From: Diplonema papillatum
Taxonomy: Eukaryota; Euglenozoa; Diplonemea; Diplonemida; Diplonemidae
Reading direction: 5' to 3'
Length of the DNA: 64,000 bases
NCBI GenBank assembly: GCA_030068145.1
Contig: JAPJBO010000205.1
Coordinates: 124,001 to 188,000 of the forward strand
Shown: positions 6,098 through 62,914 of the stretch, piece after piece
Layout: every line of letters begins with the position of its first letter
Numbering within the stretch: the first letter of the stretch is position 1
Notes under the pieces: model-generated
What the model saw: only the letters and a program-made list of their open reading frames with translations
What the model was told of the DNA's origin: nothing
Database searches by the model: none
Position numbers and translations under genes: made by a program

Positions 6098-6182
6098 CTG
6101 GGGGGGGTTGCAGCGCTCTTGTTAAGGATCAGCCACTTTGGCCGGATGGCCGGATAAACCAGACCCCCCCCCCTCCCCCCCC
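6098..6182. repeat. G-run/C-run bounded short repeat P, copy 1
   Basis: A G-run is followed by CAGCGCTCTTGTTAAGGATC and GGCCGGATGGCCGGATAAAC, and ends in a long C-run. The same unit is at 8383-8468. A looser relative with CTTGTTAAGAACC and a C-run is at 9352-9440. Confidence 0.75.
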
Positions 6183-7928
6183 CCTCTACAGTGCAGTTGC
6201 CTTGGAGGCTGGGTGGTCAAATTCTCTAAGGTGAAATGGTCAAGATTTCCTGACAAAAATGGGCCCACGCTGGGAACTACTGTGTCGCCCAGTTTGGCGG
6301 CGGCAACCCGTTCAGCAGCAATTTGAGACAATCTTGCTGCCCCAAGAACCACGCTGGCGTACGTCACATGTAGCCAGCCGTCGACTACTAACCGGCGTGA
6401 CAGGACATGCCTCCAGCCGGACACGTGTTCCGCGAAGCTGCGTTTCAGGTTCGCAGGTTCGCTGAAAACGCCAGCCCCTTTCCAGCACCATCTTTCTCCC
6501 AACACGGGGGCACCTACCAATTCCCCACGCTGCCGGCAGAGCCTGCAAACGAACCGACCAGGGTCAACTTCCACGTAGCCTGAAGCTGCCGCAGCCCATG
6601 ACGTGTTTTGTGACACGACCGGTTTAACAGGGGCCGTACGAAGGCGAGCAAAGAACGGGTGCAACTCTTTGTTGGTGGGTGCCGGCAAGGCAGTGGACGC
6701 TGCCTGTCTAGGCAAAAACTGCAGCACGAAGAAGTGTCCAACCGCGTCGTAGCTTTCTGCAACGAAAGCGATGCACACTTCGTTCGGGGTGATACCGTGA
6801 ATCCTGGGGACACACGTTTCATGTTGGCCCCGAGAGATGTAGCGCATCTTGTGATGGGAACAGAAAGCGGCCACCTCGTTTGTCGTCAACCCCAGGAAGA
6901 TCTCACTGGTTAGGGCATCCGTCACTGCAGTCTGCAGTCTCGCCTTCGTCATGTGGAGCATGGAAGGGGTGGCAACATCCCTCCAAAACTGCTGCAGCTG
7001 TAGTACAGTCGGCAGGTGGGCTGGCCCGCACTGATTGCGCTGCAGAGCCGAAGCCACGTACAGCGTTACGTACGAGCAACTCATATTGTATTGAGTTGTC
7101 GTCGTTGTCGCGAGGTCGATCGTAAACCCTTGCGACTCTAACGATTCGAGGAACAGGCGCTTCGGGCTTTCCACCAGGGCCCATCCGTGGTCGATGACGC
7201 GGGCCTCAAACCTCGCTTCTTGATCGCCAGAGGGCACATCCCCCGTCGCCTGGGCCAGCCTCGATTCCAGTTCGGCCCGCGTGCCCGTCGTCGCAAGGTT
7301 TTGCGCCCTCAACAGGGCCTGGATATCGGCAACCATTTTCCTTCGCTTCTTAGGCGGCTCAGCAACCGTATCAGCGGTGCTTGTGTCGTCTGTTTCCGCG
7401 TCAACAACTTCTTCGTCGACCTTGGTAGCGCCCTCGTCAATGTGCTCAGCCCCCTCCATAGCCGCGCACTCGTCCACTGATTCGTCTCCGATATCGTCTG
7501 CAACGACAGCCTGCAATCTGGCACGAGCCTCTGCCTCAGCAGCAGCCAGGTCACTGAACTGCTCCTTCCAAATGCTGGTCAGACACGCTGTTACGGCGGT
7601 GGAACTATCCTCGTTCCAGGCGCTACCGAGGCACCGCTTTGCAAATGCCTGCAAGTCGCCGTACTTGCCAGCGTACAGCTCCTTCCCTGGTTCCTTTTTG
7701 CGACAGGGGAAGCTCGTTCGTCATGCGCACTACAGCACTCATGACAGCGGCAGTGTCCGCGAACTTCTCGTGCTTCCAGATGCTGCCCAAGTTGCAATTC
7801 GCAGCATTCCAGTCGGTTGGTGACCAAATCAAGCTCGCCGGAGTCGACTTGATGACAGCCAAAGCCTGCTTATAGAAGTCAGGGTGCCCGACAGGGAACA
7901 GTTGCTTGCAAGTGCGCAGACCGGACAT
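6122..7928 (-). pseudogene. SAP-domain protein with zinc-finger-like motif; frameshifted, tail replaced by a repeat
   Basis: The minus-strand ATG at 7928 opens a frame that breaks at an A5 run near 7700-7712; the continuation runs 7654 to 6122 one frame over. One base less in that run would join them (LSQ then KEPGKELY), so this is a frameshift or a sequencing error. The upstream part and the start of the downstream part share a weak repeat (LGSIW / LTSIW). A SAP-like DNA-binding motif (VADIQALLRAQNL) lies at about residues 107-136 of the downstream part, after an acidic stretch and a PPKKRRK nuclear signal. Later come NMSCSYVTLYVA, GHFFVLQFLP and a CRLC...H...H finger. The last 50 residues lie in a repeat also found at 9130-9215, so the natural end is lost. 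Probably transposon-derived; the family was not identified. Confidence 0.55.
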
Positions 7929-8214
7929 TTTGGAGACGAGAAGAATTTAGGTAAGGTGTTGATTTCGACAAGAAAAATTTGAATAGTCCTGGATTGGTGT
8001 TGTGCTGATGTCTTGCGGTCGTTCGGGTCACTCGATGATACTCAGGGCACTCATCAGTGGTGGTACTCGGGGCCGGCCTCTTTGTGGCAAACGACAAACG
8101 ACAAACGCAAGTGAGAAACCGTCGCACTGTGTCGGGGCTAGTTCTTCTTCTTGGCCAGAAACAAAAAGCGAAAAAACTCCCACCGACTGGGCAGGCAGAT
8201 TCGTACAAGGTGAA
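7929..8214. other. 5' flank of the SAP-domain gene
   Basis: No gene recognised. It contains the upstream side of the minus-strand ATG at 7928 and a CAAACGACAAACGACAAACG triplet near 8088-8108. Confidence 0.4.
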
Positions 8215-8360
8215 AAGGTCAAGGTCAAGATCCCCTGCAAAAATGGGCCCACAAAAATTTTTCCGAAGTGTGGTATTTGGGGTATTTGGGCCCCAAAAAA
8301 AAAAATTTTTTTTTTGACCATTCACCGTGGCGACCACCTTAGAGCGTGACAGGTACGGTC
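8215..8360. mobile_element. MITE-like repeat L, copy with inverted ends
   Basis: The left end AAGGTGAAAAGGTCAA and right end TTGACCATTCACC are imperfect inverted repeats around TGGGCCCACAAAAATTT and an A/T run. Other copies are at 9130-9290 and, cut short, 6180-6262. The outer right part (CCTTAGAGCGTGACAGG, 8337-8353) matches the reverse of 15378-15400, hinting at a larger family. No ORF is present. Confidence 0.55.
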
Positions 8361-8382
8361 CACCTCCACAGTGCCAATACCA

Positions 8383-8468
8383 AGGGGGGGGGGGCAGCGC
8401 TCTTGTTAAGGATCAGCCACTTTGGCCGGATGGCCGGATAAACCAGACCCCCCCCCCCCCCCCCCCCT
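8383..8468. repeat. G-run/C-run bounded short repeat P, copy 2
   Basis: Near-identical to 6098-6182 in its core (CTTGTTAAGGATCAGCCAC and GGCCGGATAAACCAGAC), with longer homopolymer flanks. Confidence 0.75.
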
Positions 8469-8640
8469 GCGGTGCCAGACTCACACCGCAGTCCTGTCTG
8501 CAGACACTCAGGTTCCACGCTGATGATGGTCCGCCTTATGTGTCCGTGGCTTAAAGGACCGAAACACGGCGCAGACGGGACCAGTGCGGTGTTGAGCACA
8601 TACCCATTCCAAGCACGTTCTTGCAATCCCCCCATTCCAG
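8469..8640. repeat. Dispersed repeat Q, copy 1
   Basis: CCAGACTCACACCGCAGTCC through CCAAGCACGTTCTTGCAATC. Almost the same text occurs at 8975-9130 and 30137-30290, each followed by a C-run. Confidence 0.8.
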
Positions 8641-8652
8641 TAGGGTACTTCG

Positions 8653-9130
8653 CGTAACGCGACTTGCTGCCCTCAGCACGCAGGATTACTTCCTCGCACT
8701 CTTTTCCTTTTGGTACTTCAACCATTGGTGCTGCACACGGCAACCCCATGTCCACTGTGCTCTGCGGAGTTTACTTCGCAGATTGCCACCGTAAAAAGAA
8801 GACAAGTCAGTGCTGCCTAGCGAGTCGCAGTCACAATCAGGGCGAGTGCCCTGAGTTTTTTAACTGATTGCTCAGACACGGTTGTAGGGGCCTTCTCCCC
8901 GTGACGGATTCGCCTGTGCTCTAGTAGCACGGGTGGTCCTGGCTGTGACGAGCTACGAACAGCCGCCTGACAAACCAGACTCACACCGCAGTCCTGTCTG
9001 CAGACACTCAGGTTCCACGCTGATGATGGTCCGCCTGATGTGTCCGTGGCTTAAAGGACCGAAACACGGCGCAGACGGGACCAGTGCGGTGTTGAGCACA
9101 TACCCATTCCAAGCACGTTCTCGCAAACCC
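8653..9130. repeat. About 480-bp duplicated segment, copy 1
   Basis: The block from GCGTAACGCGACTTGCTGCC to the end of repeat Q is repeated almost base for base at 29811-30290, 21 kb away. Only a few differences are visible (TTTTCC against TTTTTCC, GACAAACC against GACAACCC). A diverged partial relative is at 19140-19240. No protein was recognised; the high identity implies recent copying. Confidence 0.85.
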
Positions 9131-9290
9131 CCCCCTCTACAGTGCAGTTGCCTTGGAGGCTGGGTGGTCAAATTCTCTAAGGTGAAATGGTCAAAATTCC
9201 CTGCCAAAAGTGGGCCCACAAAAATTTTCCAAAGTGTGGTATTTGGGGTATTTGGGGCAAAAAAAAAATTTTTTTTTTCTGACCAAGGAA
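9131..9290. mobile_element. MITE-like repeat L, copy 2
   Basis: It begins CTCTACAGTGCAGTTGCC and runs through GGTGGTCAAATTC, TGGGCCCACAAAAATTT and an A/T run to CTGACCA. It directly follows repeat Q. The start is shared with 6184-6262. Confidence 0.55.
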
Positions 9291-10162
9291 AAATCCAACC
9301 TTTTTCCAGATTTCCAAAATGCCTCTTCTATTCAAGGTACCTCCTGTATTCAACCCCCCAGGCATCTTGTTAAGAACCATCCATCCATCCATCAGCCGGC
9401 TGACCCCCCCCCCCCCCCCCCCCCCCCACCCCCCCCCCTCCCTGTTCCCCTGGACGGAATGTGAGTGCTTCGTTTGTTGTGTCCTTCTCCCATCAACGAC
9501 AGGGGAACCCGGTTCATTCCGGGGCCTAGGTGGACGGAGCGGCCGTACCCACCCAGTCACCCCAAACGCCGCGGGGTGACCTCTCAAAAAAAGAACCCGC
9601 TCGCTTTCTGAGGGCTCTGACGCGAGGGACGTACAGAGCCCGAAAAAAACCCGCCTTGTGCACACAACCGACGAGAAGGAAGCAACCGGTACAGGTAGGG
9701 AGACGGTCCACCCAAATCGACTTCGCCCCGCTGTACCACCAACCACGGCATCGAGACCGGGCAGAGTTTAGGTGAACTCCATCCTGCCCCCGTACGGTCT
9801 CGTCACTACCAATCGGGACCTGTTCCATTGTACAACCGAAACCCCAGAAAATCGACAAAAGACGCGTCGGGCCCTGAGCCTGGCAAAAAAACCAGTAGCA
9901 GTAGTTTAGAAGCGTGAATTCCCTACCCCCCCGTGTATTGCACCGCCGACCGTCCAGACGAACAAGCCGCCCCATCCGCCCGCCCCTCCCTATCACCCCT
10001 TCCGTTACGTTACGTTACGTCATAGATCTTCCCTCCGACTCGTTGGCCTTCCTCCACGACGACTCACCGTCCCCCCAAAAAAAACCCCCCGACTGTTCCG
10101 CGTGTCCGGTTTTGCGACGACCCGGTCCACAAACGCGCGAGGTCCTACCGGAACGGGTCAAG
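9291..10162. other. 5' flank of the Penelope-like element, with C-run and hairpin
   Basis: It holds a 40-base C-rich tract at 9404-9440 and a perfect 8-bp hairpin, GGGCTCTG at 9612-9619 with CAGAGCCC at 9634-9641, preceded by CTGA and followed by GAAA. The frame of the downstream ORF stays open from 9914, but with only a GTG and no ATG before 10163. The element's left boundary was not found. Confidence 0.45.
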
Positions 10163-13100
10163 ATGCGTGTACCGCCTGCCGACGCGGATATGCGGCGGCG
10201 CCCGGAGTTTGCGAAACCATTCCTCGCACCCTTCTTCCAAACCGACTGCGTTCGTACGAAGACGGAAAAGACGACGCAGATCGACTGGTCGAAATGGAAG
10301 GAGCAAGGCGTGGAATTCACGAGCCGGTTCCTGAGAAGATACGGGAGGAAGCTTGCACACACATACGCGACGCTCAAGCTCCAGCAGCCGGAGAACCCGA
10401 GCAACTACAAGGCTTCGGGTCTCATCTATGGACTCGTGGACTCGCATGCTAACCTGTTATATATCGGCAAGACAGGCAAGACGATGCAGGAAAGGGTCGC
10501 CAAACACTGGTCTGGCAGGAACAGCAAACAGGACCAGTTCAAGCGTCACTTACAGAACCTCCCTTCCCCGCCGTACGCTTTCGTGCTCTACGACATCCCT
10601 GGTGCGTTTTACTCCGACGGGAGTTCGTTCGACAGGGTGTCGGAGCCGATAGAGATGGCGTTCATCGCGATGCTGCAGCCGATGTTCAACACGGTGAGGA
10701 CAGCCAGCGATTTGAACAGACGGAGGAAAAAGCCCCGCACTGCACCATCGTTCACAAAGGCACCGGGCAACGAACGGGACGCCCAAGGAGCTTCACGCGA
10801 GCGTGGGGAGCCGTGGGTTCACGTGGATGGCGAAGAGATACGGATCAACCAGGGACGGGGTAGATTCTTCGGCATCCGTAGGCAGTTGCAGCACCTCTTC
10901 GGACTTGAGGAGGACGCACTGCGGGAGTATGACGTGAACCCGTGGATGAAGAGCCGGGTGTACAGGGTTCGGACGTGGGTTCGGCGGTTCATGATCGAAC
11001 ACCTGCAGCATCCGAAGGTGGGGATCCTGGACGAGCTGCTCACTGCACGGCTTGGTGAGATAAACCACCTCGCGAAAAAGAAGAAAAGTGCGGCACGAAC
11101 CCCGTGGTTCTGCATCCAACAGGTCAGCAAGCTGCTGGACGAGCGCAAACTTGCCGCTATCTTCCGCCATGATGCCCAACTCCGTGCTCTCCTCGCCGAC
11201 CCCACGGAATTCATCAACACGAGAGTCTCTACGTCACTCAACCCCCCTCTCGGGGTCCTCCTTTCCAACTTCACAGAGGTTTCAAGACAGACGACCCCGG
11301 AGCCGGCCCCTCCGCCCGAAGACTGCCCGTGTCAAAAGTATCTGCTGCAAGGATACCACATTCAAGGCCATGCGTGTGGGCAAGCACACCTCCTCGACAC
11401 CTGCAGCGAACTAGTTACGCTCTTCGACAAAGGTCGCAAGTTCCGCCCGGATGGCGGCGACGAAGCTATTTGTACTGAAGTGGATAGGGCGGTGGCTTTG
11501 TTCGTCGAGGGGTACTTTAATGACTCCCCGCCTAGTTTCGCCAGACTGCTGCGGGAGAAGATAATGTCGACCGTCGGCGTGACGCGTATTGGTGCCGAAC
11601 CGGAGGTGACAACCACATCGCGTCGACGCCTGCGAGAACTGCACAAGGACCTCGTAATTCTCCCGGTCGACAAGAGTTCTCACGACTTCGGGTTCGTGTG
11701 TAGAAGATTCTACAACCAGGATCTGTACACGAAGGTTAACCACAGCGTGAACTACGCCCCGAGCGAGAAGACACCGGAAGAAGTCGTAGCAGATCACAAG
11801 ACGTACCTGGAGCAAAAAGGGCTGAGCCCCACGAACACCCTCCCCTACCTTTATGGCACCTTGAAACTACACAAGGAGGTGATAACCATGCGGTACATCG
11901 CCGGGGTCTCCCGCAAAAACACTGTGGGCCCGGGGGAGACTTTTCCTGAACGCGAAACACGCCGCCCCGATGCAACATTTTCATCGACGACGGATGCACA
12001 GCTGGATCTAACGGGTCTGTTGAAATCAGTCATGGAGATCCTACGGAGGGAGGACAACGACCGATTCAACGCGACCGGGTTTAGATTCTTCTGGATCACG
12101 GAGTCCAGTGACGACACCGCCTTCTTTCTGAAGACGCATGTTGACGAGCTCTCGGGCCTGGTCGCGGGTACATGGGATTTCACGACCATGTACGACCAGC
12201 TGGGACTCGAGGAACTGCTGGAGGAAATCGCTGGTACCATCGACGAAGCCTTTGCAGCGGAGGCCGAACGGCTCGGCGTTCGGGTTGATGAACTGGTCCT
12301 AGTACGACCGAAGAGCCAACATGGGCCGCAGAAGAAGAAACGTTGTTTTGCGTTCATGCTGTTGACGGATCTGAGCTCACAGCAGGCAGCATATTCTGCA
12401 CACGACCTCAAGGCCCTCCTCGCTTTCTGCCTGGCGAACACGTACGTACTGGTGAACGGCATCCTCATGCGGCAAATATTGGGCATCCCGATGGGCGCTA
12501 ACGCCTCCCCAGACATTGCCAATCTCTTCTGCTACGCAAAGGAGAAGAGGTACATGATGAGACTCCTGGCTGAAAGGGACATCCGGCGGGCTACACTCCT
12601 CAGCATGACGCGCCGTTTTATAGATGACCTGCTCTGTTTCGGGACGAAACCCCCTCCCGAGTCCATCTACAGCATGGGGTACAAGCAGACGAATGCATGC
12701 GTAGGGGATGCGACTTTCCTTGGCATACGGATACGACATGAGGTCTCCGGCGCGTCTGGAAGGCGATACATGCGACTGTCGGTCTTGGACAAGGCGAAAG
12801 CCTACCCGTACCGCCCCCTCGCGTACACGTCAGTCCTGTCTACGGCCCCGTCAAACTTCGGTTCGAGCATCCTCATTGGGGCCCTCGTTCGCAACGGTAG
12901 GATCGCCAACAACATATATGATTTCAAGACCGAAATGAACAACACGGTCTTGAAACTCATGCGGCGTGGTTACCGGAAAAGCGTTTTGAAGAGTGGATTC
13001 CGCAAATGGCTCCTGGACACATACCCAGAGGCCAAATTTGGCGAGCATTGCGGGAAGGTGCGGAGGCACTTCTTCTGGCTCATTCACGAGGTGGAACGCA

Positions 13101-14662
13101 CTCTATCACTGCCAGAGCCGGCCGCGATGGACCTTGCGATCGAGCGCCTTCTGGCTGAAAGACCCTTCGTGAAATACAATGGCCGCCCCCAACCTGTCCC
13201 GGAAGCTGAAGATGACGCCCCCCGATCACCGCCCACCGAAGCACCGACCCGACAGGCTGACACGACCGCCCCCCGTGAGTCCACGCGGAAAGGCCACAAG
13301 CGAAAGGCTGAAGAGGACGAACAACGGGCTTCAAAGCGACGCCGCTCGAATGTCCACAAACCGGTTCTAACAGTTGCCCCTCCATCCACGTGCTACCGAT
13401 CAGACGTTTGTACACACCCGCCTTCCGTGAGGCATGATCCGACGCTGTTTGGCCCCGCCGGCCTCCCGAATCTGGGGAACACGTGCTTCTTTGGTGCGGT
13501 GCTGCAGCTCCTGCTACGGGTTGGGCCGATCAGAGAGATGTACTGGAGCCTTGCGCAGGACCTCCCCAACTGCCGTGGATTTCTCGGGGACTTCCTGGCT
13601 TACTTTGCCATGCTGTCAAGCTCTCGCGACAGTGGTGACCAGCGTAGCCGGGATTGTCGGAGAATGGGTGTCCAAGCCATCCTGAGCATGTTCGCAAACT
13701 TCTGCGATGCACGGCAGCACGATGCGCACGAAGCTCTGGTAGCGATACTCAGCGCGACTAGTGCGACGCTGGGTCCGGACGAAACGGGGACCCCCTGCCC
13801 GGGCTACCAACTCTTCGTAACATGCTTGGAGAACGGCTGGACCAGCTCAGTACGATGCAGTGCATGTGGACGCACTTCTTCCAGCAGTCAGGTAATGCAA
13901 TGTTTGCAAATTCCTTGCGGAAGGAAGCTGGAAGACTCTCTCCACGTGCACGGGTTTGTGAATCCGGAGAGAGTATGCGACTGCAAGGCTGTAGGTACGG
14001 TGGTTGAAAGCATGGATCTCCGTCTGACAGCTGAATGTGTTCTGATGCAGTTTGGCATCTACACGAGAAACGGTGCCAGGCGCCAGAATGACGTGAAACT
14101 GCCCCCCTTCTTCGGACCGCCGGACCATCTGCTACGCCTCGCGGCCGTCGTGGTGCACATGGGGGAGGATACGGCTAGCGGGCACTACGTCACGTACGTT
14201 GCGCAAGACACGGGGTGGATCCTCTTCGACGACCTGCACGTCACCTCTGTCGACGACATTCCGTGGGGTGACGTTTACCTCGCGGCCTTTGTCCGGATCC
14301 CCCGGAATGCCCACGACATGACTGTCCGTGCCCCGTCACCCTCCATGGTGCTTCCCACTCAGGATCGGCTACCCGACTTGCCTGCACCCCCAGGTTCAGC
14401 CGGTAATTTGATGAGCCGGCAGTCGGAAGGATCACCTGACTCCTTCTGCCCCTTTGGTAATTCGCCACCCTGCCCGCCCTTGCCGGACTCCCAATGTCTG
14501 ACACCGCATGGTCAGTTGTTTGAACAGCAGTTAACAGGTTCCCCGGTGCTGCGATGTCAACACTGCTCCGTCGAATGCACGAAGGATGGCCAGACGTTCC
14601 AAGGTCTGAGGGGACTCCGCGCGCATGAGAGACGTTGCCACCTCGCGGGTGTGAGATTCTGA
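10163..14662 (+). CDS. Penelope-like retroelement polyprotein: GIY-YIG nuclease, reverse transcriptase, ubiquitin-specific protease
   Basis: A single open frame of 1499 codons from the first ATG. Residues about 84-190 form a GIY-YIG endonuclease with GLIY, LYIGKT, a following Arg, Glu in EPIEMAF and Asn in MFN, so the active site looks intact. A CPC...H...H...C cluster lies near 388-406. The RT spans about 490-870 with the PLE-type LKLHK, IPMG and catalytic FIDD (Asp 821/822). Nuclease before RT matches the permuted Penelope-like groups described as Chlamys and Naiad. After a KR-rich nuclear signal near 1045-1065 comes a complete-looking peptidase C19 (USP) domain: Cys box GLPNLGNTCFF (Cys 1108), a CSAC...CDC zinc region, His box SGHYVTYV (His 1341) and WILFDD. 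A C2H2-like finger ends the protein. It probably encodes self-copying plus deubiquitination. The GC-rich frame has no stops. Confidence 0.9.
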   Translation: MRVPPADADMRRRPEFAKPFLAPFFQTDCVRTKTEKTTQIDWSKWKEQGVEFTSRFLRRYGRKLAHTYATLKLQQPENPSNYKASGLIYGLVDSHANLLYIGKTGKTMQERVAKHWSGRNSKQDQFKRHLQNLPSPPYAFVLYDIPGAFYSDGSSFDRVSEPIEMAFIAMLQPMFNTVRTASDLNRRRKKPRTAPSFTKAPGNERDAQGASRERGEPWVHVDGEEIRINQGRGRFFGIRRQLQHLFGLEEDALREYDVNPWMKSRVYRVRTWVRRFMIEHLQHPKVGILDELLTARLGEINHLAKKKKSAARTPWFCIQQVSKLLDERKLAAIFRHDAQLRALLADPTEFINTRVSTSLNPPLGVLLSNFTEVSRQTTPEPAPPPEDCPCQKYLLQGYHIQGHACGQAHLLDTCSELVTLFDKGRKFRPDGGDEAICTEVDRAVALFVEGYFNDSPPSFARLLREKIMSTVGVTRIGAEPEVTTTSRRRLRELHKDLVILPVDKSSHDFGFVCRRFYNQDLYTKVNHSVNYAPSEKTPEEVVADHKTYLEQKGLSPTNTLPYLYGTLKLHKEVITMRYIAGVSRKNTVGPGETFPERETRRPDATFSSTTDAQLDLTGLLKSVMEILRREDNDRFNATGFRFFWITESSDDTAFFLKTHVDELSGLVAGTWDFTTMYDQLGLEELLEEIAGTIDEAFAAEAERLGVRVDELVLVRPKSQHGPQKKKRCFAFMLLTDLSSQQAAYSAHDLKALLAFCLANTYVLVNGILMRQILGIPMGANASPDIANLFCYAKEKRYMMRLLAERDIRRATLLSMTRRFIDDLLCFGTKPPPESIYSMGYKQTNACVGDATFLGIRIRHEVSGASGRRYMRLSVLDKAKAYPYRPLAYTSVLSTAPSNFGSSILIGALVRNGRIANNIYDFKTEMNNTVLKLMRRGYRKSVLKSGFRKWLLDTYPEAKFGEHCGKVRRHFFWLIHEVERTLSLPEPAAMDLAIERLLAERPFVKYNGRPQPVPEAEDDAPRSPPTEAPTRQADTTAPRESTRKGHKRKAEEDEQRASKRRRSNVHKPVLTVAPPSTCYRSDVCTHPPSVRHDPTLFGPAGLPNLGNTCFFGAVLQLLLRVGPIREMYWSLAQDLPNCRGFLGDFLAYFAMLSSSRDSGDQRSRDCRRMGVQAILSMFANFCDARQHDAHEALVAILSATSATLGPDETGTPCPGYQLFVTCLENGWTSSVRCSACGRTSSSSQVMQCLQIPCGRKLEDSLHVHGFVNPERVCDCKAVGTVVESMDLRLTAECVLMQFGIYTRNGARRQNDVKLPPFFGPPDHLLRLAAVVVHMGEDTASGHYVTYVAQDTGWILFDDLHVTSVDDIPWGDVYLAAFVRIPRNAHDMTVRAPSPSMVLPTQDRLPDLPAPPGSAGNLMSRQSEGSPDSFCPFGNSPPCPPLPDSQCLTPHGQLFEQQLTGSPVLRCQHCSVECTKDGQTFQGLRGLRAHERRCHLAGVRF

Positions 14663-15018
14663 TCCGCGTCGTTTGAGCCTCATCGGATTCTTGATTGCTG
14701 GCTGGTCTATATTTCACTCCGCACCCGTTTACCCTGACTAACGGGAAAAACTCGAAGTGTCTGTACGAGTGAACGCACACTAACATGAGAGGATGAAGGC
14801 ACGTATATGCCGCCTGGCCCTGTGCTAGGCGTAGTTTGAGGTTGTACTTATTTCCGAACAACCTACCACGAGCTTATCCACCCACACCCCCATTTTTCCC
14901 CTTTCTTTTTATTTACTTTTTCCCGCCCGATGTCGCTGATGACTAACGGACCGTCGGACCCGTCCCAACGGGGGTGCTTATGGAAGCTGCAATGAAGGCT
15001 TAGACCGGTACGGGCTAC
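14663..15018. other. 3' flank of the Penelope-like element
   Basis: No ORF or poly-A tail was seen. CTGATGACTAACGG at about 14935 is followed by short inverted repeats (CCCGTCCCAACGGG) but lacks a GAAA core. The element's right end is not visible without a second copy. Confidence 0.4.
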
Positions 15019-15318
15019 ATGGCAACCCCTGCTCAACATGTAGAACGTGGGGGGCCCTTGATCACATTCATTACGGGTGTGGTCGTGGTGTCGGTCGCAA
15101 TAGTCGCTTTGCTAGCCAAAGAGAGAGATAGAGAGAAAAAGAGCGCCAGAGAGAAAAGAAAAGATAACGTTATCTTCCGGAAAAGAAGGGTTACGCGAAC
15201 CCCCGAAAAAATAATTACCCCCCAAAAAAAAATATACAGAAAAAAAAATAAAATAAAAACACAAACCGACGGTGACCCCCAAAACCTTTTTCAACCTTTC
15301 CAACACCCTTCAAGCTAA
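15019..15318 (+). CDS. Possible small membrane protein (99 aa)
   Basis: An ATG frame with one hydrophobic segment at residues about 13-33 (LITFITGVVVVSVAIVALL), followed by a highly basic tail that runs into A-rich DNA. It lies 350 bases after the Penelope-like ORF. There is no family match from memory. The Lys-rich end may only reflect A-runs, so it may not be a gene. Confidence 0.25.
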   Translation: MATPAQHVERGGPLITFITGVVVVSVAIVALLAKERDREKKSAREKRKDNVIFRKRRVTRTPEKIITPQKKIYRKKNKIKTQTDGDPQNLFQPFQHPSS

Positions 15319-15344
15319 ACCATTATACAACGACCCCCCCCCCC

Positions 15345-15840
15345 CCAGGCTATTTTCACTGTGGAGGGGGGAGACGCTACCTGTCACACTCTAAGGTGGT
15401 CACCACGGTGGGCGGTCCGCATAACGGACCTTTTCGACGATTTTCTGATCCCGATGCAGAGAACCGTGAAAAATAGACCCGGGGACCAAAAAACATGTGC
15501 GTGGTTCGTGGGTCTTTGCCAGATGCGGGGCACCGGGCGTGGAACCCACAGATTTTCAATGGAAAGGACGGGAATAGACCCACTGGTTGGTGACATTTCT
15601 TTGCTGGCCCATGTAGCAGACCTTTTTCGGCGAATGTGCTCGCGTTCAGCTCCGATGAAGAGAACCGTGCCAAATAGACGGGACCACAAATTACGTGCGT
15701 CTCTTCCAAGAAGAAGGGAGTTCCCGCGGGTTCCGGGTTTGCGGTGCTGTTTTCTATTTCTTTTTTCGGGAAAATTGCAGGATCAGCACGCCGAATACAA
15801 GAGGTACCTCTTGTATTCGACCCCCCCCAGGAATCATGAA
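15345..15840. repeat. Two diverged copies of an about 200-bp unit
   Basis: Blocks around 15425-15505 and 15620-15705 both contain GATG(C/A)AGAGAACCGTG, then AATAGAC, then GGGACCA and ACGTGCGT-like text. The left edge (15378-15410, CTCTAAGGTGGTCACCACGG) matches the reverse of 8325-8352. The right edge (GAGGTACCTCTTGTATTCGA) resembles 9334-9356. It is repetitive, probably a degraded element. Confidence 0.45.
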
Positions 15841-16288
15841 GAAGTACATCAAAACGGACGAGCTGGACAAGAAGCTGGAAATAGCAGAAACTTGTTGGCT
15901 TGGTCAAGAGTTGCCACAAGCCGCCACAGCACAGGAGCGCGGCCGAGGGCATCCGGCGGGAGAAGCCACAGCTGGGAAGCGCAATTGCAGCTAGTGTTCG
16001 AGGATGAGTCCACAAATAAGTAGAAAAAGCACTTCGATGAGCAGCAAACCTTCAGTCTACGCCGCCAGCCTCAGAGTTGAGTTGGAAAGGATACATGTCG
16101 ATAATCCTTGAGTGGGCTAGAAAGCGCACGATTGCGGAAAAGGACGAGAAAAAGAGCATGTTGGCTACCCTTTCCTACATGAAAGGCCATGAAACAGCTG
16201 AATCTGGCCACCAAAGTCAATTTTGCACAAGAAATAGACGCGCCAAAGATTGGTTGGTTCATAATTACAACAGGAAAATTTGAGAAGC
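15841..16288. other. No gene recognised
   Basis: Short open frames exist on both strands, but none has recognisable motifs, splice context or codon bias like the confident genes. Confidence 0.4.
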
Positions 16289-16510
16289 AAAAAACGATCG
16301 TTTTTTGAAAACGATAAAAAACGATGATATTTCACTTTCGAAAATGATCGTTTTATATAACTATCGTTTCCAATCCGTGCTATAAGCTAAATAAAAAGTT
16401 TTTTGTGGCTATAAGCTAAATAAAAAGATTTGAAAGGGCTATACGCTAAATAAAAAGTTTCACTTTAGGTGGCTATAAGCTAAATAAAAAGTTAGCAGGT
16501 GGCTATAAGA
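16289..16510. repeat. ACGATCGT stretch plus GGCTATAAGCTAAATAAAAAG array
   Basis: Five imperfect units of (GG)CTATAAGCTAAATAAAAAG with short spacers follow CGTTTCCAATCCGTG. This is the same pair of modules as at 5731-5885, with the array facing the other way relative to CCAATCCGTG. It may be one end of a second foldback element. Confidence 0.6.
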
Positions 16511-16747
16511 CAAAAAGCCCTAAAACAAAAGAGCGTTTTACTACCTTGCGCGGTGTCACGGGATGTTTGGCAGCCGCTGCTAAACAGTGCATGCTAATCC
16601 ATGTGGTTCATGTACTTAAAAGAACTCAATGCTAAACAAACATAACGTGGTGACACCATTTGAGACGACTGAAAGCATAGACACAAAGATAGCTCAAAGC
16701 ATCTGCAGAATAACACGAAAAGCCTCTAGGCAAAACCCGTTTCACAT

Positions 16748-16802
16748 TTCTCCCCCTCTAGCCTCCTTCGAAGTAAGCACAAGGCAGCCTCGAGTATTTT
16801 TG
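16748..16802 (-). repeat. Head fragment of SINE-like repeat A
   Basis: TCTCCCCCTCTAGCCTCC to CCTCGAGTATTTT, the 5' head of family A in antisense. It is followed immediately by repeat K. Confidence 0.7.
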
Positions 16803-17735
16803 TCTATAAGATCGCAGATCTTCTTAGAAGAATAATATATCCGGCGGATGCCGAACACCTGTACAAGGTTAAATAACCCCGTCACTATCCCGAAAACATC
16901 GTAATTTCACCCCTCCGCTTGCCCACCCACCCTTCCCCTTTTTTCTGAAGCCGTGTCCTGAGGCGTCACGACGATTGTGACATACACACCGAATCACTGC
17001 CTGACCTTTCTATTTCGACTGTTGCATCATCCGCGACGGTAAAGACGAAGCAGCAGACGGAGCCAGTATACGCAGGAGGAGGATGTATAATTGGTAGGAA
17101 ATGAAACTTATTTCTTTGATGACTAACAATACTCCGAACGACAGGTTTTGCCGCTCCATCCGTCCAGTCCCTCCCTTCCCGCTTGCTTCATTTTGTTCGG
17201 AGTTCCCGTGACACCACTTCATGTGGTCAGCAGCAAGATCAGCAGCTTTCTGGCTTCACCTTTTACTCCAACCATACGGCGCGGCAAGCAGGGCAGGAGC
17301 GGTGGACGAGAGTGACAGACACAAGTATAGGAGTGAGGATATTATTAGTCGTATAAGACGCTAGTCTTAGAAGATTCATATTAACCGACTAATGATATAC
17401 TGTGAAACAGGGCCTCTCGCTCCCTCACACAACCGCTCACGCTCTTGCTTGCCCACCATCCCGCCCCCTAGCTTTCCGTGTCCTGAGGCACCACGATGGA
17501 AATGTGGCAAACACACAACGATCATTAACAGTTGGTTCGTTTTCTACTTTACCCTTTTACGCAGCACTGAGACTGGAGCTAATCGCAGCACGAGACGCAC
17601 ACCGAGGAGGAGAATATTATCGTATAAGAGACGCTAGTCTTAGAAAAACAATAGTACGACTAATGATGTACTGTGCGACAGGGCCTCTCGCTCCCACGGT
17701 TAACGCGCCGCACGAGCCCCGGTGTCGGTGTGTTT
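16803..17735. repeat. Cluster of repeat K (about 270 bp), three copies
   Basis: Copies start near 16804, 17346 and 17618 with TATAAGAYCG or TATAAGACGCTAGTCTTAG. They pass through GGGCCTCTCGCTCCC or CGTCACTATCCCGAAAAC text and end in AGGAGGAGRATRTT. More copies are at 19780-19905 and 23894-24050. The first 30 bases form a small hairpin that varies in a paired way between copies. Confidence 0.65.
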
Positions 17736-17889: not shown

Positions 17890-18240
17890 ATCTTCGCTTC
17901 TCCGAATTTTCTCAGCAGATGCCGGGTTCGCGTGCGCGCCTCCATCTACGGTTGGCTGCCCCAGTCTCGGTTCATCCCGCGTCGCCAGTCCTGCTTACCT
18001 GAAGTGACCCACTGAACCAGGATTCTACGTCAGGGTTCAATGAAATAACCCCGAGCTCACGCCCATTTAAAGTTTGAGAATAGGTCGAGGAAGCGATTTC
18101 CCCAATGCCTCCAACCTTTCGCTTTACCTGGCGTAACTCCTGTTTTGGTTCTAGCTATCCTGAGGGAAACTTCGGGGTGATGGACCGATGCCTACAGAAG
18201 TCCACTACTTGCGATTTGGATAACACCAATTGCAATTGTA
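17890..18240. other. No gene recognised
   Basis: No motif, repeat or RNA could be supported in this stretch. Confidence 0.4.
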
Positions 18241-29732: not shown

Positions 29733-29810
29733 GTGCTATCACCTGTTTGGAAATTTCCACAGTCAGTTACTTGAAAGCCCCCCCTCAAGACTTGATGCTA
29801 GCATGCGTTG

Positions 29811-30290
29811 CGTAACGCGACTTGCTGCCCTCAGCACGCAGGATTACTTCCTCGCACTCTTTTTCCTTTTGGTACTTCAACCATTGGTGCTGCACACGGC
29901 AACCCCATGTCCACTGTGCTCTGCGGAGTTTACTTCGCAGATTGCCACCGTAAAAAGAAGACAAGTCAGTGCTGCCTAGCGAGTCGCAGTCACAATCAGG
30001 GCGAGTGCCCTGAGTTTTTTAACTGATTGCTCAGACACGGTTGTAGGGGCCTTCTCCCCGTGACGGATTCGCCTGTGCTCTAGTAGCACGGGTGGTCCTG
30101 GCTGTGACGAGCTACGAACAGCCGCCTGACAACCCAGACTCACACCGCAGTCCTGTCTGCAGACACTCAGGTTCCACGCTGATGATGGTCCGCCTTATGT
30201 GTCCGTGGCTTAAAGGACCGAAACACGGCGCAGACGGGACCAGTGCGGTGTTGAGCACATACCCATTCCAAGCACGTTCTTGCAATCCCC
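29811..30290. repeat. About 480-bp duplicated segment, copy 2
   Basis: Nearly identical partner of 8653-9130; see that entry. It is followed by CCCCCCCCTCAAGACTTGAT, a phrase also just before it at 29779-29798, so the segment may be flanked by a direct repeat (CCCTCAAGACTTGATGCTAG) left by insertion. Confidence 0.8.
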
Positions 30291-30976
30291 CCCCCCTCAA
30301 GACTTGATGCTAGCATCAAACATGCATGCGAGGCAGTGTTCTGCCTAAACATTAAACTAAGTTTTCCCCCCCGACTGTAGTAGTTGAGGAAGGTGCAAAC
30401 TTGGAGACTGCTACAGTAGTCCTGCACGAGACTTGGGCACATGCCTCGCGTAGGGCAGGTGGGCCTGTGACCCGCTTTGAGAACCCTGGAGCCCGGCATG
30501 TGTGCCGTTTACGGGATACATGTCGGCTTCCTACTCACGGGGGACCAAGGTAGGCACTCTTACACCTCAATACCGGACCAACAACAGTACGCTGCCAACC
30601 GTCACTTTTTGACAATGACAACCGTGGTTGTTACCATAAAAAAGTGACGTGGCTCTTATTATTTGCACAGCCGGTCCTCCCCCTCCTTTGTTTCTTAAAC
30701 CGAAGAAGAAAGGGAATAGGTTTCTGAAGAAGCAAAACCCGAGCCAGCGAGCTTTTTGTGTGCCAAACAAAAAAGGGTTTTGCTCTCTCTTTTAGTTTCC
30801 GCTAAAAATGCTTGTCCTGGCCCTGCAAAAGGAGCTGCTGCATCTTCCGGAAAGGACCGCAGAACATCGACCGGGTATGAGCGGTGATGTCAGTTCGTAG
30901 GGTAAGGGCGAGAAGCTATTCTGGTAGACGATATTCTGTCGTCCTCAGCTCCGAAAGAGCTGCGGGGTCCTCTCTC
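30291..30976. other. Repeat E copy and unassigned sequence
   Basis: Repeat E lies near 30328-30375 (GAGGCAGTGTTCTGCCTAAA). An inverted pair around 30602-30650 (CACTTTTTGACAATGACAAC and AAAAAGTG) could form a hairpin. No gene recognised. Confidence 0.4.
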
Positions 30977-31702: not shown

Positions 31703-32268
31703 CCTTCTGGATCAAGAACGAGAGCGTGGGGATCCAAGATGATCAGATACCACTGCTGTAAACGATGCATTCTCAGGATCGAGGGAAGTCATTTTGGCTC
31801 CCACGCCGAACGAGAATTCAAATATTATGGGCTCAGGGGGGAGTACATTCGCAAGGCTGAAACTTAAAGGAATTGCCGGAATGACACCACCAAGCGTGGA
31901 GTATATTAATTTGACTCAACACGGGTAATTTTACCAGGGTCAGAACGATCTCAAGGATTGACAGATTGAGAGCTCTTTCTCGATGAATTGTGTAGTGGTA
32001 CGTGGCCGCTCCTGGTTGGTGGAGTGATTTGTCAGGTTGATTCCGTTAACGAACGAGATCTCGACCCTTAAATAGTTGAGCGTGTCGTTGTAGGGGGTGT
32101 CTTTTGGCATCGGCGGCTTGCTGCTTACCCGAGACGCGCACTACTCCTTAAGGGACTGCGCGCGACTTATAGCACGGAAGGCGGGCCAATAGCAGGTCTG
32201 TGATGCTCCTAAATGATCTTTGGCTGCACGCGCACAACACTGACGCACTACACGAGTTTGAGAGCCTT
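31703..32268 (+). rRNA. SSU (18S) rRNA fragment, central to 3' part
   Basis: Universal segments appear in order: GATCAAGAACGAGAG, GATGATCAGATACCACTG, GGCTGAAACTTAAAGGAATT, TTGACTCAACACGGGTAATT, GGATTGACAGATTGAGAGCT, TTGGTGGAGTGATTTGT, ATTCCGTTAACGAACGAGAT and CAATAGCAGGTCTGTGATGC. It lacks the 5' half and the 3' end. Small changes in constant positions (AATTGCCGG for AATTGACGG) suggest a dead copy. CGGAATG and GGTTGATTCCG are the Euglenozoa-type variants. Confidence 0.9.
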
Positions 32269-32471
32269 TCGGTTAACAACGGTCACACGGAGATCCTAAA
32301 CCTCCGGAATTTCAAGCGAACTTTAACTTTAAAAACTGAAAACCTTAGGTTGGTACGGAAGTCTAAAATTGATACATGACTCCGCAATCCTCACAGGACT
32401 AAAACAGCTTTAAATAACTCTAACAAACGACCCACAAGTAGGCTGCCGAGAGCGCAGACTCTTGGCGGTGC
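32269..32471. other. Permease 5' flank with repeat F
   Basis: ACGGTCACACGGAGATCCTA and GAATTTCAAGCGAAC (32278-32325) recur at 40730-40785 and, diverged, at 50796-50850. The last 45 bases before the ATG (GTAGGCTGCCGAGAGCGCAG onward) are part of the block duplicated at 24115. Confidence 0.55.
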
Positions 32472-35911: not shown

Positions 35912-36057
35912 TTTTGTTTTTTACATAAGCGCCAGCTTGAAAGGAAATGCTCGACGATGCTGCCCGACAAAGAACAGAAGGGATCCCAAGTGCTGTAACT
36001 ACCGAACCACGTGTTGAACGGACGTGAGGTCATGCGGGTCTACCCCTACACGACAAA
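35912..36057 (-). repeat. SINE-like repeat B, part 1 (interrupted)
   Basis: GTTTTTTACATAAGCGCC through CTACACGACAAA. It continues at 36659-36715 (ACAACAGGTCAAAAGTCC to GAAGAACAA) after the rRNA insertion; together they make one family B unit. Confidence 0.8.
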
Positions 36058-36347
36058 CACCGTAACTTCGGGAAAAGGATTGGCTCTGGGGACACATGCG
36101 GGATTGTCAGTGCGGGTCAGGTCTGGGCTCAGATTGAAGGTGCTGTGAGTGGCGCTCTCCGCGGCTCCTGATTTCTTCCAGGCCTTCTTGCATGTTGTGC
36201 CCGCAATGAAGTGTCAGCTTGGAACTGTTACGAACAAGAGGAATCCAACTGGTTAATTAAACCACAACATTTCGCTTCATCACAGCGGTGGCGAGTGGAA
36301 TGTGACTTCTGCCCAGTGCCCTGAATGTCAACGCTGAGAGATCAGGT

Positions 36348-36385
<38 letters not shown>

Positions 36386-36658
36386 GAAGGTAGCCAAATG
36401 CCTCGTCTTCTAATTAATGACGCGCATGAATGGATTCCTTCTGTCCCTACCTACTATCTGGCGAAACAGCAGTCAAGGGAACGGACTTGAAACTGTCAGC
36501 GGGGAAAGAAGACCCTGTTGAGTTTGACTCTAGTCTGACTTTGTGCAGTGACACGAGAGGTAGAATAGGTGGGAGGCCGCAACAATGAAATACCACTACT
36601 CTTGTTGTCGCTTTACTTATCCAATGATGGGAAGACGGCAGCTGCTCCCTTGTGGGGT
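36058..36658 (+). rRNA. LSU (28S) rRNA core fragment inserted in repeat B
   Basis: Universal LSU text in order: GTAACTTCGGGAAAAGGATT, GGAACTGTTACGAACAAGAG, CTTCTGCCCAGTGCCCTGAA, CGCGGGTAAACGGCGGGAGT, ACTATGACTCTCTGAAGGTA, GACGCGCATGAATGGATT, CAGCGGGGAAAGAAGACCCT and TAGTCTGACTTTG. Seven bases normally present after ATGGATT (AACGAGA) are missing and several constant bases differ, so it is a non-functional fragment. It contains the region used by R2 elements, without an insertion. Confidence 0.92.
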
Positions 36659-36715
36659 TACAACAGGTCAAAAGTCCTGAGTGAGAAAACAACACATGGT
36701 GGTGTAAGTGAAGAA
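36659..36715 (-). repeat. SINE-like repeat B, part 2
   Basis: Continuation of the copy interrupted by the LSU fragment; it ends GTGAAGAACAA and is followed at once by repeat A. Confidence 0.75.
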
Positions 36716-40820: not shown

Positions 40821-40936
40821 GTTGGCAGACACAGTGAACATGGTAGTTGCTACTGACGATTTTCAAAGAATTGTCTACTCTCGTGAGGTTCACACTTCAA
40901 AGGCAATGGATTGATTTTTGGAAAAACAGGTCGTTC

Positions 40937-41200
40937 GAATGAAACTCTCACCGACCTCAGCTGTTGAAGATCTACGCGCTAAACTTAAGCATATCACTCG
41001 GCGCAGGAAAAGAAAGCAACAGTGATGCTCCTAGTAACGGCGAGTGAACAGGGCAGAGCCCAAGCCTGAACCGGTGTTCTACGGATATCCAGAATGTGGC
41101 GCAAGCTGCTTGGGGACACAACTGGCGTCGAGATAAGTCTCCTGGAATGGGGTATCCACAGAGGGTGAGAGTCCCGTATTTCCTCGACAGGGTGGGCGAA
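40937..41200 (+). rRNA. LSU (28S) rRNA 5' fragment
   Basis: CCGACCTCAGCTG, CTAAACTTAAGCATATCAC, GCAGGAAAAGAAAGCAACAG, CTAGTAACGGCGAGTGAACA, GGGCAGAGCCCAAGCC and ACAGAGGGTGAGAGTCCCGT follow the LSU 5' domain. Homology fades after about 41200. No 5.8S or ITS was seen upstream. ATATCACTC in place of ATATTAATAAG resembles kinetoplastid LSU. It is a fragment, not an rRNA operon. Confidence 0.85.
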
Positions 41201-42905
41201 ATGAAAGCGAGAATGTGGGTAAGCCCTGATTATTCGATTCACGGTTAAACGAAGCTAGCGCACAAGGGTTGCCTGATCTCGCACCTACTTTCCGATACCG
41301 TATAGATGCTCTATTCAAACTCTTCCTCTGCTCGTTGTTGTTGAACGTGTTTATCCTCGAAAACAGAATGCTTCCCCCGAAGAACTGACACCTGTACGTA
41401 GGTTCGTCAAGCCAAGCAGATTCCCCTCGGAAATCCGCGAGACTCTATTAATCCCGCTGGTCCTGCCGTGGAGTATATATGGGGGATATTGAGACGGAAT
41501 TTGGAAAACTGAGGCAAAATGAAGCTAATAGCCTGTCCGGGCGGCTCAAAAATAAAAGAAAAGTGCAAAAAACGACCTTTGATGAAAAAGGTCGTGGGGG
41601 CACGGTGGAGGCGTGGGTTAGGCCAGCTGTGCCAGGAAGCTGGCTGGCGGTCCAGGGCTGCGCTGGCGGTCAGGGGCTGGGCAATGCTGGGCATGGTGGG
41701 CTGGCTGGCAGAAGTTTGGGCTGCCGCGGGTGCTGAGAGTCGAGGCTCAGAAGCAGCCCAGAATTCTTGACAGATTCTTTCCGAGTTGACACAAGTGCCT
41801 TGTTCGTGTGATCTCCGGTCTGCATCTACTCGTGCCAATGATTTACCAGTGCAGTATCTGAGTGGTGGATGAATTTGAAATGGGCTGTTGGCTTCAAGAG
41901 TGTGCACCAGATGGAGCGGGGCGAGGGTCACACAGATGGCAAACAGTGCCACCAGTACGTTGGTCGTATGTTTAACGGGGCAAACAGACTGAGAAGTGCA
42001 AAATCTTTCTCCACCTGAATGTACCGTACCGTTTGCCGGGGGGCGGTGCCCCCTTTTGGAAGGTTCGGGTGGCCCAAACACAGGCTTCTCGATTTTAGAG
42101 CGGGAAAAGCAAATTGGCTATTGAGACGGAATTTGGAAAACTGAGGCAAAATGAAGCTATTAGTCTGCTGCTTATACAAAAAAAAAAAAAAAAAAAAAAA
42201 AAACCGAAAGCGACATTCGTTTCGAAACTGAACGCTTTCACGTTCCCGCTAGACCTGTTTCAGACAGCCTTCGAAAATCTACTCGAAGCGTGCGCAGTCG
42301 AACGGGAAGGCAGGTTGGAGCAAGCCGCGCTACCCGCTTCAGCACATATCTATTCTTGCAACACCCCCTTCCCCGTGAAGGCTTGGGAATAGAATGCAGT
42401 TAGTGTGGCGAGGGTCTGCAGTAGTCACCGAGGTGACCACCTCGTACGTGCCGAACTGTGTTCCAGTTCGGGGACGGCAGCAGTAGGACAGCAGCGGCTG
42501 TGGAGGTGGCGAAACCCACGCTTATGGGGTGGGACCTTTTTCAGCACAAGAAACTTTCTCACGTATATGAGACGATGCCAAAAGGCGGGGAGGGGCTGTG
42601 GGCAGAAGGATTCCGGCAACGTACGATGCCCTGGCGGCCTCGGGGGCCCAGGACCACCCAGAAAACGACCAGTCCTGTGTCCCAGCTATTCTTCACCCTC
42701 AATCAAGGAATAAACACGCCCGCAGCTTTTGAATCCCTCCACTTCGGGTTGTTCGCCTGTGGAAAGCACCAAAAAGAAAACACACAAAAGAGGGGAAAAA
42801 GAAAAGAAAGCAACTTCCGCCGGTGGAGTAAACCTGCTTAAAGAAATCAACTGCCTTCGGGTAGGCTTGTCTGACACTGTCTGACACTAGCGTCGTCGGG
42901 GAAAC
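41201..42905. other. Intergenic with repeat M, A-run and repeat D
   Basis: Repeat M (TTGAGACGGAATTTGGAAAA and CTGAGGCAAAATGAAGCTA) is at 41488-41530 and 42120-42165. The second copy ends GCTGCTTATAC plus 26 A (42178-42203), the same tail type as repeat A. Repeat D is at 42808-42900 (AACTTCCGCCGGTGGAG, AAATCAACTGCCTTCGGGTA). A short frame at 42204-42392 reads FVSKLNAFTFPLDLF without a recognisable family. Confidence 0.5.
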
Positions 42906-59429: not shown

Positions 59430-60115
59430 AGACGTTGACTACCAAGTCTAACTAAATTTGGATCCAAAATTGAACGTTGACTACCAATTCTAATTAAACT
59501 TGGATTCAAAATTGGTGACTACCAATTCTAGTCAAATTTGGATTCAAAATTGGACGTTGACTACCAATTCTATTTAAATCTGGATCCAAAATTGAACGTT
59601 GACTACCAATTCTAATTAAATTAGATTCAAAATTGACCGTTGACTACCAATTCTAAATTAAATTTGGATTCAAAATTGGACGTTGACTACCAATTCTAAT
59701 TAAATTTGGGATCGGAAATTGGACGTTGACTACCAATTCTAATTAAATCTGGATCCAAAATTGAACGTTGACTACCTATTCTAATTAAATCTGGATCCAA
59801 AATTGAACGTTGACTACCTATTCTAATTAAATTTGGAATTCGAAATTGGACGTTGACTACCAGTTCTTAATTAGATTTTGGGTTTGGCATCAGACGTTGA
59901 CTACCGGTTCTAATTGAATTTGGAATCAATACTGGTGCGGAAATTCTTCGCTGTATCGTACCGTGCGCTGGGGGGCGCTGCCCCCCAGACCCCCCCTCTC
60001 TTACAAATTAGCTTAACCATTTTGTCTGATTCTTATTACCAACACTGAGGTTGAGTTGTGTTGGGCTGGGCTGGCATGGTAGTGCTTGACTACCAATTCT
60101 AATTAATTTTGGATC
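59430..60115. repeat. 41-bp satellite (gttgactaccaattctaatt)
   Basis: At least 12 units of GTTGACTACCAATTCTAATT plus AAATTTGGATTCAAAATTG lie at 59430-59940, and an isolated unit at 60085-60113. Between them are unrelated bases with a C-run (59960-59995). The truncated LINE begins inside the last unit. Confidence 0.9.
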
Positions 60116-62741: not shown

Positions 62742-62855
62742 AATCAGCACTGCGTCTTGTGTGGGGGGCAACGGAAGAGGAAGAAGTGGAAAGAGAAGGG
62801 ATCGGAGCGGTAGGGAAAAGGGAGAGTGAATGACTAACGATATCAACGGAAGGAG

Positions 62856-62914
<59 letters not shown>
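62856..62914 (+). repeat. 59-nt A-tail of the LINE
   Basis: An uninterrupted A-run beginning 114 bases after the LINE stop codon. No AATAAA signal lies close before it. Its length suggests recent insertion. Confidence 0.85.

Follow-up and report, generated by a model that had tools for sequence, protein, structure and literature searches.

A recently active Penelope-like retroelement in Diplonema papillatum whose single protein probably gained a catalytic ubiquitin-specific protease

Why would the single protein of a retroelement include a ubiquitin-specific protease (USP), and does that protease belong to the element at all? The question is raised by a 64,000-nucleotide stretch of the Diplonema papillatum genome (GenBank assembly GCA_030068145.1, contig JAPJBO010000205.1, positions 124,001 to 188,000 of the forward strand; hereafter the window), in which one open reading frame (ORF) at 10163-14662 (+) had been read, in a preliminary description made from the letters alone, as a Penelope-like element (PLE) fused to a USP. 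Here we show that a PLE with an integral USP is present in many copies and several subfamilies, with near-fixed in-frame spacing between its parts and with purifying selection on the protease. The sequence evidence probably describes a recently active, autonomous PLE with an N-terminal endonuclease, whose single protein gained a catalytic deubiquitinase.

The ORF is intact, with 1499 codons from the ATG at 10163, and its frame is itself open from 9914 to 14662. It encodes, in order, a GIY-YIG endonuclease, a CxC linker, reverse transcriptase (RT) motifs, a basic signal of the nuclear localization signal (NLS) type and a USP domain of peptidase family C19, followed by a C2HC finger; this confirms the single uninterrupted, nuclease-first frame proposed earlier (1499 amino acids; PF01541 at residues 86-129). 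By base composition alone, the chance that the 489 codons of linker, USP and tail would remain open is approximately 2e-7. The genome searched comprises 271 Mb in 2910 contigs, and comparisons were made between three subfamilies, represented by the window copy (A), locus L050 (B) and locus L051 (C). The start methionine of A is the same in B, and in C it is shifted by one residue (MVRLPP vs MRVPP).

The USP domain (residues 1089-1385; 13427-14317, +) proved as complete as it had looked: with the whole ORF as query, Pfam family PF00443 (UCH/USP) matched residues 1100-1365 at E 1.3e-20, covering positions 2-240 of a 254-position profile. USP36, USP12 and USP46 ranked first for this domain in a single-sequence PDB search, and a profile built from six copies found USP12 as its best PDB match (E 8.6e-14), with USP46 and USP36 also among its hits. 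Catalytic Cys1108 (NLGNTC; 13484-13486, +), His1341 (SGH; 14183-14185, +) and Asp1356-Asp1357 (LFDD; 14228-14233, +), the region of the third catalytic residue, are invariant in 6/6 aligned copies. The same holds for a QHDAHE box and for the four paired cysteines of the USP finger (C1232, C1235, C1272, C1274; 13856-13984, +). In the element, as in cellular USP12/46 and USP36, the catalytic domain is whole and includes the Cys, His and Asp boxes as well as the finger cysteines; it is related to cellular USPs only at a distance, as the E value of its best PDB profile match indicates, and is fused into a retroelement protein. Over the aligned part it is approximately 36 residues shorter than USP12.

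The linkage of USP and RT was followed across the genome by means of short motifs. The GxPMG pattern of RT motif B occurs at 234 places, against 1 in a reversed control; 129 of the 234 have the GIPMGANA form characteristic of the USP lineage (reversed control, 0). USP Cys boxes number 173 (control, 0), 100 of which were listed. Over those stretches of the genome for which both the motif-B and the Cys-box listings were complete, a Cys box lies within 1.5 kb downstream of 60/68 GIPMGANA motifs; in 51 of these 60 the spacing is 981, 987 or 990 nt, each divisible by 3. Among the 89 motif-B places listed with their letters, Cys boxes accompany 40/46 GIPMGANA places and 0/39 sister-type GIPMGGNA places (one of which reads GIPMGGTA), bearing in mind that a diverged USP could escape the Cys-box test; the remaining 4/89 look like chance matches and have no Cys box. 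The distance from GIY-YIG to motif B, examined for the 37 of 150 listed GIY-YIG places that share a contig with a listed motif, is 2061-2064 nt in the USP lineage, in frame, and for sister-type motifs with a GIY-YIG place it is mostly 2010-2019 nt, apart from two places with 1831 and 1857 nt. Because the sister-type spacing is similar and the Cys box is lacking there, the genome holds several N-terminal-nuclease families, of which the USP marks one lineage.

Copies with the same domain order, for which the preliminary description had called, are numerous, and its refuting condition, the lack of any second copy with the USP attached, clearly fails. A genome search with the whole protein returned at least 34 matches (31 of 1300 candidates scored), including 18 full-length copies at approximately 100% identity, all stop-free, and 6 further copies of nearly whole length at 86% identity; older subfamilies are approximately 86% and 68% identical to the window copy, and B and C both retain the order. 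Searches with single domains reached further, with at least 86 matches down to 72% identity for the RT (84 of 650 candidates scored) and at least 135 matches from 100% to 60% identity for the USP (135 of 665 candidates scored). The 3' flank could be read for 17 of 20 A loci (L001-L020). Eleven of these flanks differ from one another, so the copies arose mostly by independent insertion rather than by duplication in the assembly. The others fall into three pairs whose first 12-16 nt are alike: L009 and L011 both enter the start of a next copy, L003 and L016 lie in the same target repeat and are also alike on the 5' side, and L001 and L020 form the third pair. The 18 full-length A copies differ at only 10 codons in total, and represent a very recent burst that is too young to show selection.

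Selection on the USP, which the preliminary description had proposed as a check, is visible between subfamilies, where dN/dS is 0.13-0.22. The individual values are 0.222 for A-B (bootstrap 0.157-0.332), 0.131 for A-C and 0.167 for B-C, the ratios to C being rough, given that dS to C is mostly >1 and in some parts not computable. There is no indel in 297 codons among A, B and C. Elsewhere in the protein, dN/dS is 0.057-0.070 for the RT, 0.078-0.131 for the endonuclease, 0.345 for the C-terminal tail (A-B) and 0.33-0.64 for the linker where computable. The USP is under purifying selection, and a neutral passenger USP is rejected by dN/dS and its bootstrap.

The remaining domains bear on the identity of the element. 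The GIY-YIG endonuclease (residues 85-185; 10415-10717, +) was placed by Pfam profile and alignment: with the whole ORF as query PF01541 matched residues 86-129 at E 1.4e-4, exactly at the family cut-off, and with the N-terminal piece alone the match improved to E 3e-5. Its residues Y89, Y100, R111, H115, E161 and N176 are invariant across A, B and C. The CxC linker motif (CPCQ...GYHIQGHACG, residues 388-406; 11324-11380, +) is likewise conserved, with CPC (388-390) and the following HIQGHACG identical in all three subfamilies; its name comes from the Naiad/Chlamys literature. The probable Penelope-type RT core and thumb (11660-13042, +) contain motif A (D672), motif B (GIPMG at 774, reading on as GIPMGANASP) and motif C (FIDD, 819-822), and the RT region of the window copy shows GIPMGANASPDIAN in addition to FIDD. 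The GxPMGxxxSPxxAN and FIDD motifs are conserved among the aligned subfamilies and, together with the CxC linker, are what we take to be marks of N-terminal-endonuclease PLEs. Members of that group have a CxC motif between endonuclease and RT, an insertion in the fingers domain, and an insertion bias towards microsatellites, and are not known to carry a canonical hammerhead ribozyme. In the window element GIY-YIG precedes the RT in one ORF, as in that group; approximately 90 well-conserved residues, covered by no profile, separate RT motif 2 from motif A; and no hammerhead ribozyme was found in window positions 7500-17500 or in loci L005, L053, L009 and L051 at E up to 5.

In our view, motif and context establish the RT, and profiles do not. 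The earlier reading of a Penelope-type RT with FIDD holds by motif and is not echoed by general profiles, which gave no Pfam RVT match for the window protein. The RT of the window copy had no significant match among Pfam, PDB or PHROGs profiles; weak matches were obtained to a PADLOC RT (E 0.023) and to the NCBIfam group II RT (E 0.19), and Pfam RVT_1 reached E 0.091 in 1/7 aligned copies. Comparison of the element RT with the other RT in the window by hhalign gave no signal.

The C-terminal part of the protein adds two features to the protease. In the fast-evolving linker ahead of the USP, a bipartite-type NLS, KGHKRKAEEDEQRASKRRR (13289-13345, +), was read by eye; its basic clusters are retained in A, B and C, and the surrounding linker is 24-27% identical to C. 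Behind the USP, the finger that had been described as C2H2-like is indeed present and is better written C2HC (C1465, C1468, H1488, C1492; 14555-14638, +); it is conserved in A, B and C, and no Pfam family scored above cut-off there.

The limits of the element and its insertion sites are consistent with a mobile PLE. Comparison by blastn with 20 genome copies, together with flanks and a tandem unit, places the window copy at 9442-15346 (+, 3' end approximate), directly behind a C-rich tract (9404-9441, +) that flank reading identifies as the target microsatellite at the 5' insertion junction. Longer copies extend approximately 2.0 kb further upstream and show the window copy to be 5'-truncated at 9442, which amends the preliminary description. 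The sequence upstream of 9442 in the longer copies was considered as an ORF1 and rejected, no supported protein being found. Approximately 1500 nt upstream of the ATG are common to 10/20 A loci, the 5' end is truncated in 9/20, and L009 meets a contig end. Of two neighbouring copies arranged head-to-tail on contig C230 with a period of 7901 bp, the junction puts the element start approximately 2.7 kb upstream of the ATG, and on contig C253 a subfamily C copy ends in poly-C with a truncated A copy beginning directly behind it. Tandem, pseudo-LTR-type arrangement (long terminal repeat, LTR) and 5' truncation are therefore both present in this family.

At the other end, the 3' untranslated region (UTR; 14663-15333, +), approximately 360 nt of which are 75% identical to subfamily C, runs into the terminal ...ACAACGA followed by poly-C (15334-15346, +), as the 3' ends of A loci indicate. 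All 17 readable A loci run into 5-29 C; in the other three, L012 and L018 meet a contig end and the L019 match stops earlier. A C-run of at least 8 lies within 40 nt of the truncated 5' end in 6/9 cases, a G-run in 1/9 and neither in 2/9, against a background in the window outside the element of 0.65% of positions for C-runs and 0.24% for G-runs. An insertion bias towards poly-C is seen, and the 3' C-run may in part be the element's own sequence. Poly-C ends and a copy nested behind an earlier tail are what target-primed reverse transcription at poly-C would leave. Within the 3' UTR, a nearly invariant G+C-rich long hairpin block (14810-15172, +, against L051 4889-5252) is shared by A and C; the two sequences compared show no compensatory changes, and the block is possibly the RNA that the RT recognizes.

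A pair of 159-nt direct repeats upstream (8475-8633 and 8975-9133) was considered as the pseudo-LTR of the element and rejected, since copy comparison starts the element at 9442; the repeats belong to another small element. This small element, with its repeats 500 nt apart (8475-9133), has a second copy at 29810-30297 (98.8%), and its start resembles the PLE 5' start (86% over 57 nt at 8628-8684), by which it is perhaps a non-autonomous relative of the PLE. Nearby, a 510-codon frame with a SAP domain (6122-7654, -) shares repeat sequence in its 3' part (6100-6268) with 8384-8468 and 9128-9219.

How would such a protein work? Following its basic signal, the protein would enter the nucleus, where the GIY-YIG domain may nick poly-C/poly-G tracts and the RT, by target-primed reverse transcription, may start copying the RNA at its 3' end, ...CGACCC(C)n. 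On the likeliest reading, the USP, held in cis between the RT and a finger of DNA-binding type, would then strip ubiquitin at the insertion complex. Its likeliest substrate may be, much as the preliminary description suggested, the element's own RT/endonuclease particle, which would avoid proteasomal removal, or else chromatin or repair proteins that carry ubiquitin where the DNA is nicked. The data do not distinguish self-protection of the particle from clearing of chromatin and repair factors.

A second family in the same genome offers a parallel. GIY-YIG and OTU deubiquitinase places on the same strand within 8 kb were sought among 150 listed GIY-YIG places (225 candidates) and 150 listed OTU places (656 candidates), and all 8 pairs found fall in one separate family, known here from GIY-YIG and OTU alone. 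In 7/8 places the two domains are 2928 nt apart and in frame (contigs C45, C364, C670, C734, C758, C839 and C1599, with six frames of 1544 codons and one of 1426); the eighth pair (C336) is 4283 nt apart and out of frame. The distance from GIY-YIG to USP in the window lineage, 3042-3045 nt, is close to the 2928 nt of the OTU family. We tentatively raise the possibility, which we hold to be somewhat doubtful, that GIY-YIG-first retroelements in this genome took up deubiquitinases of unrelated fold (USP and OTU) at least twice, in frame and in almost the same position after the nuclease. If true, ubiquitin removal would be no oddity of one element; such elements would have arrived at it repeatedly to deal with some general step of insertion, for instance the clearing of ubiquitinated chromatin or the shielding of the nick-bound particle. 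Given this parallel and a USP that is conserved and selected, deubiquitination by the element is likely.

Long repeated frames of this genome often contain OTU domains, with at least 150 places (150 of 656 candidates scored), and Ulp1 proteases are rare (5 places). Other long repeated frames with OTU have 1876, 1938, 1966, 1972 or 2130 codons (e.g. C957, C1760, C2450, C99), some of them in tandem units of approximately 6.1 or 7.55 kb, and constitute abundant OTU-bearing mobile elements. A repeated 2210-codon frame with GIY-YIG (e.g. C42, C168, C679, C1, C39) has no GxPMG match nearby in the listed part.

Several observations weigh against a catalytic USP in a PLE as we describe it. The RT identity depends on motifs, and no relative was confirmed in viral or prokaryote sequence collections. 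Non-synonymous changes account for 8/10 variable codons in the young A copies, as expected if these were unselected, and for 8/68 lineage motifs the 1.5 kb downstream contain no Cys box. The USP dN/dS is 2-4 times that of the RT in the same protein, so the USP is less essential or under other pressure. One B copy (L049 on contig C4, read directly) has an in-frame loss of 350 codons comprising most of the USP, which removes the domain behind its Cys box, leaves the finger end and has its junction at a short microhomology; a second B copy (C1875) shares the 350-codon loss, as inferred from its frame length and its absence among the USP matches. Since such USP-deleted B copies still exist, mobility without a USP in cis is possible, perhaps with the protease supplied in trans.

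The alternatives to a deubiquitinase acting at the insertion complex concern where and how the domain works. A cytoplasmic role of the USP, or one directed at host defence in general, in which it stabilises the protein/RNA particle and does nothing at the target site, is unlikely; USPs commonly stabilise partners, and here the domain is in cis to endonuclease and RT, but the basic clusters kept in a linker that is otherwise only 24-27% identical (A or B vs C) point to nuclear work, though not exclusively so. We also give little credence to a USP that only reads ubiquitin, guiding the complex to chromatin so marked, with catalysis unimportant. Its position adjoining a nuclear-type signal and a finger would suit a reader, and binding alone would likewise yield purifying selection; however, a pure reader could lose its catalytic residues freely, and Cys1108, His1341, Asp1356/1357 and the QHDAHE box are invariant between subfamilies (A or B vs C) whose synonymous changes approach saturation.

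Very unlikely is a processing protease that frees the endonuclease, the RT and itself from a polyprotein, in the manner of retroviral and many viral polyproteins. USPs cleave after the Gly-Gly end of ubiquitin. Against such processing, GG occurs only once in the ORF (residue 431, RPDGGDE) and nothing resembling LRGG is present, and a canonical PLE protein is reported to work in vitro when purified at full length (PMC11167929). Finally, a host gene placed in frame behind the RT by chance insertion or assembly error has next to no probability and is refuted by multiple copies and subfamilies. In its favour, the USP shows a lower codon-usage correlation with the PLE part (0.815, vs 0.906 between the PLE halves), which is what a once-acquired domain should show. 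Against it, the USP is joined in 18/18 full-length copies, most with unlike 3' flanks, and in all three subfamilies, and its in-frame spacing is nearly fixed at the places listed.

Among known elements, PLEs with an N-terminal GIY-YIG are reportedly Chlamys, from green algae, spike mosses and slime molds, and Naiad, from invertebrates. Both share with the window element GIY-YIG before RT in one ORF, the CxC linker, tandem and nested copies, 5' truncation and microsatellite sites, with no hammerhead found, and Chlamys reportedly further shares a nuclease domain without Cys, as in the window copy. What the window element adds behind the RT is an NLS-type linker, the USP and the C2HC finger; we know of no such C-terminal protease in these clades. 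Canonical Penelope/Poseidon PLEs, in the available portions of PMC11167929, likewise combine GIY-YIG and a telomerase-like RT in one ORF, form tandem repeats that make pseudo-LTRs and insert in a manner consistent with target-primed reverse transcription; they differ in that the nuclease is C-terminal, a hammerhead ribozyme is present and those portions mention no protease.

Ubiquitin or SUMO proteases are familiar from DNA transposons, according to the accessible parts of PMC2836005 and PMC4067079: Ginger1 transposases carry OTU or Ulp1 C-terminally, Mutator carries Ulp1, and some Helitrons/Helentrons carry OTU. A Trichomonas transposase_11 protein carries peptidase C19 (PMC2836005). A role of the protease in transposition is proposed in these accounts and, in the parts seen, not tested. 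The shared trait is a mobile element with such a protease; the difference is that those elements use DDE/IS5-like transposases or Rep/helicase proteins, whereas here a USP accompanies GIY-YIG and RT. No PLE or other retroelement with a USP was found in listings of open-access literature, which cover few subscription papers. The earlier remark that a USP in a PLE had no known precedent needs one qualification, C19 with a transposase being known in Trichomonas (PMC2836005). The novelty is the USP in a retroelement, that is, an N-terminal-endonuclease PLE with an added deubiquitinase.

Elsewhere in the window, an 877-codon frame at 60109-62742 (+) matches RVT_1 (E 5.1e-14) and is followed by a 59-nt A-tract (62856-62914); it is probably a non-LTR retroelement. 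Low-scoring, scattered pieces of small- and large-subunit rRNA (Rfam) lie between protein-coding frames at 17892-18174 (-), 31838-32357 (+), 36049-36490 (+), 36527-36675 (+) and 40882-41249 (+).

Among retroelements, PLEs have the closest ties to telomerase, and the finding widens what they are known to comprise. With a USP in cis under purifying selection and natural USP-deleted copies alongside, this young multi-copy family offers a clean test of whether mobile elements need to fight ubiquitin for insertion. The fused nuclease-RT-deubiquitinase protein of this family suggests that such elements may bring their own tool against the ubiquitin tag.

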